DNA of 64,000 nucleotides from contig JAJFUB010000046.1 of assembly GCA_021372615.1 (NCBI GenBank), positions 1 through 64,000 of the forward strand. The letters are read 5' to 3'. Within the stretch, counting starts at the first letter, position 1; each line of letters starts with the position of its first letter. Source of the stretch: a bacterium. Its GTDB lineage: Bacteria > Armatimonadota > Zipacnadia > Zipacnadales > UBA11051. The position numbers were made by a program, and so were the translations under genes. Of the stretch, positions 11,243 to 49,686 are shown one piece after another. The notes below the pieces were generated by a model. It had not been told where the DNA came from. It ran no database searches and saw only the letters and a list, made by a program, of their open reading frames with translations.

Positions 11243-11261
11243 CGCGATGGGGCCGCCGGAG

Positions 11262-11348
11262 GGGCCGGATATCATCCGGCCCGCCGTCACTGGCGCACGG
11301 TGCAAGGCAATGGGAGACCCTCACGACGGGCCGGCTGGTAGCCGGCCC
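11262..11348. repeat. Paired palindromes at the start of the TlpA-like gene (family I)
   Basis: There are two related 21-base hairpins: GGGCCGGAT-ATC-ATCCGGCCC (11262-11282) and GGGCCGGCT-GGT-AGCCGGCCC (11328-11348). They share the outer GGGCCGG/CCGGCCC stem and differ by a compensatory pair next to the loop. The second copy lies inside the likely coding sequence of the thioredoxin-like protein. Confidence 0.75.
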
Positions 11349-11852
11349 CTCCCTGCCCTGCCCTTACTGCTGGCGGCTTCCCTGCTCATTGCGTCGCTGG
11401 CGTCCGCCGACGACACCCGGCCTGCCCCGCAGCCGGGACTGACCATGCCGGCCTTCGCCCTGTTCGATCGGGACGGGCGCCTGCATCGCCTGCCCGACTA
11501 CACCGAGTCCGTGCTGGTCGTCAACTTCTTCGCCTACTGGTGCGACACGTGGGTCAAGCAGTTGCCCCAGCTCAAGGAGCTGTCGCGCCAGCAGGCGGAC
11601 CTGCACTTCCGCCTGATCGGCATCAGCGTGGACGGCCAGTGGTCCGACGCCCGGCGCAAGGTCCTGCGCGACCAGAAGCTCCTCTTCCCGGTGCTGCTGG
11701 ATGGCCGGTCGGAGCTGGCGCGCCAGATCGGCCTGCGCCGCGTGCCGACGGTGCTGGTCCTCGACCGGCAGCGCCGGGTCACATACGTACACGAGGCTTA
11801 CCCCGGCAACCCGCCGGTGCTGGCGGCGGTGCGGAAGGCGTTGTCGCGGTAG
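11310..11852 (+). CDS. TlpA/thioredoxin-like exported protein with a single active-site cysteine
   Basis: The protein has 180 residues, counting from ATG 11310. A hydrophobic segment (LPALPLLLAASLLIASLASA) is followed by a thioredoxin fold: MPAFALFDRDGRLHRLPDY, VLVVNFFAYWCDTW, FRLIGISVDGQW and the cis-Pro strand LRRVPTVLVLDRQRRV. TlpA/ResA proteins normally carry WCxxC. Here the motif is W-C78-D-T-W81, so the resolving Cys is Trp and a classical dithiol-disulfide cycle is impossible. It may be a monothiol reductase, a one-Cys peroxiredoxin-like protein or a structural homologue. The frame extends to ATG 11247, but that longer start runs through two palindromic repeats. Even the 11310 start puts a repeat (residues 7-13, GPAGSRP) in front of the signal sequence. 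No convincing ribosome site is visible. Confidence 0.72.
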   Translation: MGDPHDGPAGSRPLPALPLLLAASLLIASLASADDTRPAPQPGLTMPAFALFDRDGRLHRLPDYTESVLVVNFFAYWCDTWVKQLPQLKELSRQQADLHFRLIGISVDGQWSDARRKVLRDQKLLFPVLLDGRSELARQIGLRRVPTVLVLDRQRRVTYVHEAYPGNPPVLAAVRKALSR

Positions 11853-11865
11853 ACCGACGCCAGCC

Positions 11866-11965
11866 GGTACGCCCGACACTCCTGTCGGGCATTGTGCCGC
11901 ATCGTGGTACGCCCGACACTCCTGTCGGGCATGTTCCGTCGCCCGACAGGAGTGTCGGGCGTACC
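11866..11965. repeat. Three copies of palindromic repeat family A
   Basis: The 25-base unit begins GGTAC and continues as the hairpin GCCCGACA-CTCC-TGTCGGGC. Copies lie at 11866-11890, 11906-11930 and, inverted, 11941-11965. Identical copies occur at 44354-44378 and 55872-55896. Gaps between copies are 15 and 10 bases, and the unit is palindromic, so this is not a CRISPR array. Confidence 0.9.
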
Positions 11966-17824: not shown

Positions 17825-19459
17825 ATGACTGCATCGCACGCCCCCGTCTCCCCGTCCCCCGCGCGGTCGCCGCTGCTGCTGGTGCTGTGCCTCCTGTTCG
17901 TCTTCGTCTTTGTGTGCCTCCTCTTCGTCCCCTTCACCAGCGACGACGCCTACATCACGATGCGCTATGCCCGCCACGCCGCCGCCGGGCAGGGCCTGTG
18001 CTTCAACCCCGGCGAGCGCGTCGAGGGCTACAGCAACCCCCTGTGGCTGGGGCTGCTGGTGGCGGCAAGGCGGGCGGGACTGGACTTCGTGGTGGCGGCG
18101 AAGGTGCTGGGGATCGTGGCCGGGCTGGGGGCGCTGCTGTTCGCGCTGGCGATTGTGGTGCGGCTGACGGAACGCTATGACTGGCTGGCGGCGCTCGGTC
18201 TCCTGCCGCTGACGACATGCGCGCCGCTGGCGGTCTACGCCGTCTCCGGCCTGGAGACCGTCTTGTACGCGTGCTTCCTCACGGCCATCGTCTACTGCTG
18301 GCTCGTGCCCGGAGGGCGGGCGTGGTGGGCCGTGGTGCTGTGTGCGCTGGCAGCGGCCTTCACACGGCCCGAGGGGATGGTCGTCCTCGCTGCCTTCCTC
18401 CTCTGGCGCGGCCTGACGGTGACCGCCCTCCAACCCCGGCGCGATGGGGCGCGCCCCTACTGGCTCTCCGTGCCCTTCGCCCTCGGTGTGATGGCGCTCT
18501 TTCTGCTGGTCCGTCACACGGTCTTCGGCGCCTGGCTGCCCAACACGTTCTACGCCAAACCCCCCGGCGCGTTCGGCACCATGTCGCTCCTGTCGCCGCT
18601 GGTGTACTTGCGAGACTACCTGCTCGACGGCGGCGTGTGGCTGTGGCTGACTTTGACGGCGGGGGCACTGTGGACCGCGGGCTTTCCAGCCCGCGGCGAT
18701 GCCCGCGGGCTGGAAAGCCCGCGGTCCGCAGCCGTGGCCGCACTGTTGCTTGTGGCCGTCCAAGCCGCCCTCGTCATCCACGCCCGGGGCGACTGGATGG
18801 CCCTGCATCGCTTCCTGCTGCCGCTGACGCCACTGCTGGTGGGCGTGGGCTACGCGGGCCTCGTCCGCCTGTTGCCCCACCGCCCGACCGTCGTGGCTGT
18901 GCTCGCGCTGGTGACCGTCCTCAACGTCATCCAGGTGGCGCAGGTGCGCGGGGAGTTCGTCGCCGGGCGCTATCCCTATAGCGTCATGGCCGGCCAACCC
19001 CAGGAGCAGGCCGGTCGGTGGCTGCGCCAGCACTTCCCGCCGACGACGGTGCTGGCATGCAAGCGCATCGGGGGCGTGGGGTACTTCTCGGGGATGCCCC
19101 TGGTGGACACGCTGGGGCTGGTGGACCGCCGCATCGCCCTGATCCGCCACGGCAGCGCGCGGCGCGGCGACGAGGAGAACGAGGCCATTGCCCGCGAGGT
19201 CTTCAGCCGCCGGCCCGACCTGATCCTCCTGGCCGTCGCGGCCCGGTGGGATGACGTCCCGCTCGACCAACCAGCCCCCGATGTCGCCCACAACCTGCGC
19301 GACGTGGACGAGGCCCTCTACCGGGGTCTGGAGGCCCACGGCTACGGCTTCATCTACCGCCTGCCGCAGGGCGGCGACGGCGAGTTCGTCATCTACGCCC
19401 GGCCCGGCGTCACCCTCCCACCGGCACTGCATCTTCCCGCTTCGGAATCCGCCCCATGA
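17825..19459 (+). CDS. GT-C-type polytopic membrane glycosyltransferase
   Basis: The 544-residue membrane protein has about ten hydrophobic helices. The first helix is followed by SDDAYITMRYARHAAAGQG and NPGERVEGYSNPLW (~39-75). This acidic-pair motif and loop is typical of GT-C enzymes (PMT, ArnT and arabinofuranosyltransferase type) that use polyprenyl-phosphate sugars on the outer side of the membrane. The C-terminal ~120 residues are soluble. Residues 283-301, between two hydrophobic segments, are encoded by a 56-base palindrome and are probably an insertion. No strong ribosome site precedes ATG 17825, and a longer TTG start is possible. The stop overlaps the next start as ATGA. The acceptor is unknown. 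Confidence 0.8.
   Translation: MTASHAPVSPSPARSPLLLVLCLLFVFVFVCLLFVPFTSDDAYITMRYARHAAAGQGLCFNPGERVEGYSNPLWLGLLVAARRAGLDFVVAAKVLGIVAGLGALLFALAIVVRLTERYDWLAALGLLPLTTCAPLAVYAVSGLETVLYACFLTAIVYCWLVPGGRAWWAVVLCALAAAFTRPEGMVVLAAFLLWRGLTVTALQPRRDGARPYWLSVPFALGVMALFLLVRHTVFGAWLPNTFYAKPPGAFGTMSLLSPLVYLRDYLLDGGVWLWLTLTAGALWTAGFPARGDARGLESPRSAAVAALLLVAVQAALVIHARGDWMALHRFLLPLTPLLVGVGYAGLVRLLPHRPTVVAVLALVTVLNVIQVAQVRGEFVAGRYPYSVMAGQPQEQAGRWLRQHFPPTTVLACKRIGGVGYFSGMPLVDTLGLVDRRIALIRHGSARRGDEENEAIAREVFSRRPDLILLAVAARWDDVPLDQPAPDVAHNLRDVDEALYRGLEAHGYGFIYRLPQGGDGEFVIYARPGVTLPPALHLPASESAP
18672..18727. repeat. 56-base palindrome inside the glycosyltransferase gene (family G)
   Basis: The arms 18672-18695 and 18704-18727 are perfect 24-base inverted copies (25 with the flanking G-C pair) around a short loop. 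Each arm itself contains the smaller hairpin GCGGGCT-TTCC-AGCCCGC. The element is in frame and encodes about 19 residues (TAGFPARGDARGLESPRSA). Confidence 0.85.
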
Positions 19460-31393: not shown

Positions 31394-31493
31394 GCCGTAG
31401 GAGCGTCGTGCCGTAGGAGCGCCAGCTTCCAGCTGGCAGCCGTGCGATGACCACGTGCCAGACGTGCCGGCTGGAAGCCGGCGCTCCTACGGC
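31394..31493. repeat. Palindromic repeat family B: two full inverted copies and a fragment
   Basis: The 28-base copies are 31410-31437 and, inverted, 31466-31493. A fragment (GCCGTAGGAGCG) starts at 31394. The hairpins are GCCAGCT-TCC-AGCTGGC and GCCGGCT-TCC-AGCCGGC, a compensatory difference. They lie between the convergent ceramidase-like and GH-like genes and may serve as a bidirectional terminator. Confidence 0.85.
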
Positions 31494-49349: not shown

Positions 49350-49376
49350 GTTCGTTTCCGCTGTTCAGGTGATGCT

Positions 49377-49462
49377 GCCCTGTAGGGCGGGGGCTCGTAC
49401 CCCGCCCCGCATGGCACAAAGTAGACAGACTGGGCGGGGTACGAGCCCCCGCCCTACAGGGC
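49377..49462. repeat. Two 31-base inverted copies of repeat family D
   Basis: The arms 49377-49407 and 49432-49462 are perfect inverted copies with a 24-base centre. Each arm contains its own hairpin GGGCGGGG-GCTCGTA-CCCCGCCC and the flank GTAGGGC. A degenerate relative is at 42046-42092. The element fills the metG upstream gap, so RNA from either strand could fold as one long stem or two small ones. Confidence 0.9.
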
Positions 49463-49464
49463 TG

Positions 49465-49686
49465 CTAGTGATGGCAGCCGGCGCAGCTACCCTTCGAGCA
49501 GCTACTGCAACTGCTGCCGCCGATGGAGCCCCCGCCGGAGCTGTGCCCGGCGAAGACCGACATGAGCCGCTGGCTGCGGGCGCAGTGGCACTCGGGGCAG
49601 GGCCCCGGCTTGTCCCGCTGCTCCCGCGACATCAGTTTCTCGAAGACATGCTCGCAGCGCTTGCACTTGTACTCATAGACAGGCAT
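49465..49686 (-). CDS. FmdB-family zinc-ribbon protein
   Basis: The 73-residue protein begins MPVYEYKCKRCEHVFEKL and has a second pair PCPECH, the four-Cys zinc ribbon of the FmdB/CxxC_CxxC_SSSS family (regulatory or putative nucleic-acid-binding role, not biochemically defined). The tail GGGSIGGSSCSSCSKGSCAGCHH is Ser/Cys/Gly-rich with two further Cys pairs, also common in the family. It begins 6 bases after the ricT stop, so it is translated in the same operon. Confidence 0.9.
   Translation of the reverse strand: MPVYEYKCKRCEHVFEKLMSREQRDKPGPCPECHCARSQRLMSVFAGHSSGGGSIGGSSCSSCSKGSCAGCHH

Follow-up and report, generated by a model that had tools for sequence, protein, structure and literature searches.

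A palindrome in the reading frame of a GT-C glycosyltransferase gene as a probable REPIN insertion in an Armatimonadota genome

How can a gene for a membrane protein stay open across a long palindrome, and what is the palindrome doing there? The question was raised by a window of 64,000 nt (contig JAJFUB010000046.1, positions 1 to 64,000) from the genome of a bacterium of the Armatimonadota, where such a structure is located inside a predicted glycosyltransferase gene. The best explanation, to which we assign a probability of about 0.88, is that the palindrome is a non-autonomous mobile element of palindromic structure, a REPIN, which landed in frame in this gene. REPINs have been described as doublets of REP sequences that form a hairpin (Bertels and Rainey 2011, PMC3116915). 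The features of the locus are the following:

17825 to 19459, plus strand: host gene, coding for a 544-residue polytopic GT-C glycosyltransferase (AftB/ArnT-like fold), as judged from a weak family match and the predicted fold
18668 to 18731, no strand assigned: probable REPIN, an inverted pair of REP hairpins, with 29-nt arms 97% complementary and a 6-nt loop
18672 to 18696, plus strand: first REP arm, GGACCGCGGGCTTTCCAGCCCGCGG, itself a hairpin (stem CGCGGGCT / AGCCCGCG, loop TTCC)
18697 to 18702, plus strand: loop CGATGC separating the perfect arms; this spacer is variable among copies
18703 to 18727, minus strand: second REP arm, an inverted copy of the first

The arms of the longer repeat (18668 to 18731) match at 28 of 29 positions, that is, with one mismatch per 29-nt arm pair, and such an inverted repeat (28/29, loop of up to 60 nt) is expected by chance about 4e-8 times per window. 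The first-pass annotation described the 56 bases of the core (18672 to 18727) as a perfect palindrome. This description holds for the arms, which are perfect over 25 nt each, while the whole core is self-complementary at 52 of its 56 bases. The smaller hairpin, which had been noticed within each arm, was also found, as CGCGGGCT-TTCC-AGCCCGCG.

The host protein showed a weak profile match to the LA_3751/LA_3752 putative glycosyltransferase family. The Pfam search of the gene gave no family, and neither did the Rfam search of the window. The predicted structure of the protein had a pLDDT of 81.7, with coil at residues 287-294, and the fold search pointed to the GT-C class, with AftB (9dlf) as the best match (E 4e-9). 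These predictions match a GT-C (AftB-like) glycosyltransferase as the product of the gene. The REPIN corresponds to residues 283-301 (WTAGFPARGDARGLESPRS), which are placed in a loop joining two membrane helices, in agreement with the earlier proposal that the palindrome lies between membrane segments. The reading frame is uninterrupted through the palindrome, and coding-type codon usage continues in the same frame on either side, so the gene indeed remains open. The earlier proposal that about 19 residues are added in frame is correct as to what the element encodes, while the net gain over the closest homologues is about 12 residues. These homologues are distant (at most 42% identity), which makes the empty site less precise than in larA, mutS, and an enolase-superfamily gene described below; a search through 46 genomes of the class gave no empty site closer than that of the first set of relatives. 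The first-pass annotation had suggested an alignment with homologues, and had named as the refuting outcome the presence of the same residues encoded by unrelated codons. The alignment returned homologues without the insert, and the refuting pattern was looked for and not found.

The same annotation had also suggested a search for the arms elsewhere in the genome, and they were found to recur. The search of the organism's own genome (6.4 Mb in 171 contigs) gave 87 alignments, which placed the arms at about 40 sites, and the best copies were 86-91% identical across the whole focal element. The copies have unrelated flanks and variable spacers, and they occur both as doublets and as single REPs. 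There are 22 doublets, most of them with a spacer of about 9-13 nt between 23-nt arm cores. The copies are GC-rich, their doublets consist of 24-nt hairpins that have GGA(C/G) at the ends, and the consensus arm is GGA(C/G)CGCGGGCTTTCCAGCCCGC. The bases preceding GGA(C/G) are weakly biased to G-T-T with no clean GTAG tag, and a CGTC tag is absent from the arms of the aligned genomic copies. When the aligned copies were inspected by eye, no consistent target-site duplication was seen, and neither a target-site rule nor the precise ends of the element could be fixed. In the searched genomes of other genera of the same taxonomic family the element was missing, except for one weak single-arm match, as expected for species-specific REP families; some more distant relatives carry different but similar families. 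The fragmented state of this metagenomic genome could raise the suspicion of an assembly or amplification artefact. However, fold-back chimeras would explain neither the recurrence of one 24-nt arm at about 40 loci that differ in spacer and flanks, nor the intact reading frames, and we give this explanation practically no weight.

Two copies carried paired changes within one arm, which were G10A/C19T in C87 and T12C/A17G in C114. These changes keep the hairpin of the arm and break the pairing between the arms. Judged from these two sequences, what is being kept seems to be the hairpin of the single REP. This observation bears on the proposal that the palindrome is a gene-specific RNA device, in which the mRNA hairpin would pause ribosomes between membrane segments, or would serve as an RNase site that sets expression. 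The mRNA fold is very stable, at -73.8 kcal/mol versus -41.8 +/- 3.3 kcal/mol for dinucleotide shuffles (z = -9.7), and its position between two membrane helices would suit such a role. On the other hand, the same element is present in unrelated soluble enzymes and at many intergenic sites, the host-gene homologues are without it, nothing ties it to the host gene, and the two copies above keep the single-arm hairpin at the expense of the long one. Since the element occurs freely in unrelated genes and between genes, there is no reason to suspect that it regulates its host gene, and we consider an RNA device very improbable.

Most of the focal copies are intergenic, and at least 11 of about 40 are clearly within genes, with a same-frame coding signal on both sides, as defined with our own simple codon-usage caller, used in place of a standard annotator. 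The 11 hosts are recD2, the window gene, hisS, larA, hypF, an enolase-superfamily gene, the genes of a DUF2334 protein, a methyltransferase and a squalene-cyclase-like protein, and two others. The names hisS, hypF, larA, methyltransferase, and recD2 come from database matches, enolase-superfamily and DUF2334 from Pfam, and "squalene-cyclase-like" is our reading of the sequence; a PDB sequence search with the enolase-superfamily protein gave no match. Three further copies are located at N-termini and are ambiguous as in-gene cases. The copies are strongly depleted in genes (11 of about 40, versus 89% coding in a genome sample; binomial P ~3e-19), which is expected if most insertions into genes get lost. 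The flanking genes of 12 intergenic copies, which were read individually, look like separate complete genes, and no gene broken by a copy was seen at these 12 sites.

Within genes, two peptides each were seen for the forward arm (ERGLSSP and AGFPAR) and for the reverse arm (RAGKPAL and GLESPRS). The third frame is absent among the 18 arms of the clear in-gene cases, with a chance probability of about 7e-4 if the arms are taken as independent, which is not quite so; this frame may be used by L024, an ambiguous copy at an N-terminus. The arms are free of stop codons in all six frames. The doublet cores of 55-90 nt fall into all three length classes modulo 3, which makes length phasing uninformative. 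These reading frames also bear on whether the palindrome could be a conserved protein segment with codons that are palindromic by accident. The open frame and the normal codon usage on both sides would fit such a segment, but the homologues are without these residues, and the same DNA is read in differing frames, as four different peptides, from gene to gene, which makes this explanation hardly credible.

To see how the insertions changed the proteins, the in-gene hosts were compared with relatives, most of them 50-73% identical. On these alignments, the relatives of six hosts, including the window gene, are without the insert, which is not the pattern of protein-level conservation. The larA product has exactly 8 extra residues, or 24 nt, corresponding to one REP. 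The enolase-superfamily protein has 12 extra residues when compared with 11 of 11 relatives, the recD2 product 12-13 when compared with nearly all of them, the hisS product 4, and the hypF product about 8, in a variable loop. The net gains at larA (24 nt) and at one site in mutS (60 nt), which carries REPs of another family, are clean. Three doublets, however, have a net gain of about 36 nt from an element of 55-58 nt, and some 21 nt of the native loop are missing there. As the net gain is below the size of the element, a simple insertion does not fully account for these sites. In the closest relative, the enolase-superfamily site already has GGAGCGCGGACT, which is similar to the outer REP arm (12 of 16 bases). 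On the evidence of this one site, the missing sequence would be explained by an insertion guided by microhomology, with part of the native sequence replaced locally.

Besides the focal repeat, the genome contains further REP families, among them sister families with a GTAG tag. One of these sister families is represented in the window:

31410 to 31493, no strand assigned: sister-family REPIN (GTAGGAGCGCCAGCTTCCAGCTGGC); the same family flanks a RAYT gene at L035

This family and the focal arm have the GGAGCGC lead and the TTCCAGC centre in common. The mutS gene (L114 1847-4696, minus strand) contains two separate in-frame insertions of the non-focal GTGGGAGCGGTCACCGACC type, which add exactly 20 residues at one site and about 40 at the second when compared with 9 of 9 relatives. 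An in-frame palindromic doublet of a non-focal REP family was also found in an rluD-like pseudouridine synthase gene (L129 3872-4924, minus strand). When nested doublets of all families were counted in 0.68 Mb not chosen by repeat, namely the window and the starts of contigs 1-40, 7 of 26 were inside genes. Several further repeats were noted separately. In-frame palindromic doublets are present in a DUF6785 protein gene (L115 1067-3055, minus strand) and a GH123-like protein gene (L095 602-3250, minus strand; at least two). The window has a REPIN-like doublet with GTAGGGCGGGGGCTCGTACCCCGCCC arms and a 24-nt spacer at 49374-49465, and nested inverted repeats at 11258-11352 and 11866-11965, with GGAGGGGCCGGAT... 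arms and a threefold GGTACGCCCGACACTCCTGTCGGGC set, which recurs at L110 6373-6435. Short CCGTAG/GCCGTA hexamer arrays (e.g. GCCGTAGCCGTT) were seen in REP flanks at L010, L068, L074, L075, L077, and L085.

The genome encodes seven Y1_Tnp genes. Two of them (L034 and L035) are above the cut-off of the NCBIfam model NF047646 for REP-associated tyrosine transposases, two others (L031 and L033) come close to it, and L029 and L030 are closer to the NCBIfam IS200/IS605 transposases. The RAYT-type gene at L035 (1-2095) has GTAGGAGCGCCAGCTTCCAGCTGGC REPs on both sides (a REPtron), and the Y1_Tnp gene at L029 is flanked by GTAGCCRYGGGC REPs. Separately, the Y1_Tnp gene at L030 (1240-2410) is surrounded by several GGTGACGGGGGCTTCCGCCCCCG copies. 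REP-flanked genes of this kind resemble the described RAYT / TnpA-REP REPtrons (Nunvar 2010, PMC2817692; PMC8266576), with the difference that among the Y1_Tnp genes of this genome none was found to adjoin an exact focal-family copy. By analogy with the biochemistry of TnpA-REP (PMC8266576), we infer that the focal family may be mobilised by a RAYT.

With its dispersed arms, unrelated flanks, and variable spacers, and with a GTAG sister family linked to a RAYT, the anatomy of the palindrome is, at the level of sequence, that of the REP/REPIN class. Similarly to REPINs (PMC3116915), the focal element consists of two inverted REP hairpins and a spacer, which together form one long hairpin, its many dispersed copies are mostly extragenic, and RAYT genes are present in the genome. 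It is different in its shorter spacer, its weak tag, and the more than one quarter of copies located in genes. Di Nocera et al. (2013, PMC3733652) previously observed REPs and their dimers in frame within ORFs, where 20-30 residues are often gained. The targets of these intragenic GTAG/CGTC REPs, which include DNA repair, tRNA synthetase, and pseudouridine synthase genes, are similar to the mutS, recD2, hisS, and rluD-like genes found here, while the focal arm starts with GGA(C/G) and not with GTAG. That study has 24 GTAG families, and we class the focal repeat as a probable new family within this known type.

The first-pass annotation also drew a parallel to Rickettsia palindromic elements (RPEs). 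As regards behaviour this parallel stands, because RPEs are also palindromic, open in several frames, and inserted in frame in unrelated genes in a way compatible with protein function (PMC10969869, PMC3733652). This likeness could suggest that the palindrome is a true member of the group. However, RPEs are about 150 bp long and form several families, of which the short RPE-4 and RPE-6 belong to the CGTC-tagged class (PMC3733652), and for CGTC REPs no dedicated transposase is known (PMC10969869, PMC3733652). The focal arms are without the CGTC tag and resemble instead the GTAG-tagged sister family tied to a RAYT, which places the element in the REP/REPIN class. Membership among the RPEs is refuted by the absent tag, and we regard it as most unlikely.

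Taken together as a REPIN insertion, these data suggest how the locus may have arisen. The REPIN would have landed in a stretch of the glycosyltransferase gene that codes for a loop, and the insertion could have survived by virtue of a net change that is a multiple of three, arms free of stop codons, and extra residues confined to an inter-helix loop. The REP hairpins would be recognition structures for a RAYT-type Y1 tyrosine transposase that acts on single-stranded DNA, while the mRNA hairpin and the extra peptide would be tolerated by-products, the peptide being presumably neutral. A more far-reaching proposal is that REPINs in this lineage are recurrent builders of loops, with several families placing in-frame peptides in dozens of enzymes, partly replacing the native loop at REP-end-like sites through microhomology, and using two of the three arm frames in genes; we consider this doubtful. 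Intragenic REPs in frame are thereby recorded in one more lineage, and several families contribute to them in the same genome. They also carry a warning that a hairpin of this kind within a gene need not be regulatory. With empty sites available in relatives, the way in which small palindromic mobile elements lengthen conserved enzymes such as HisRS, MutS, and RecD2 can be studied directly.
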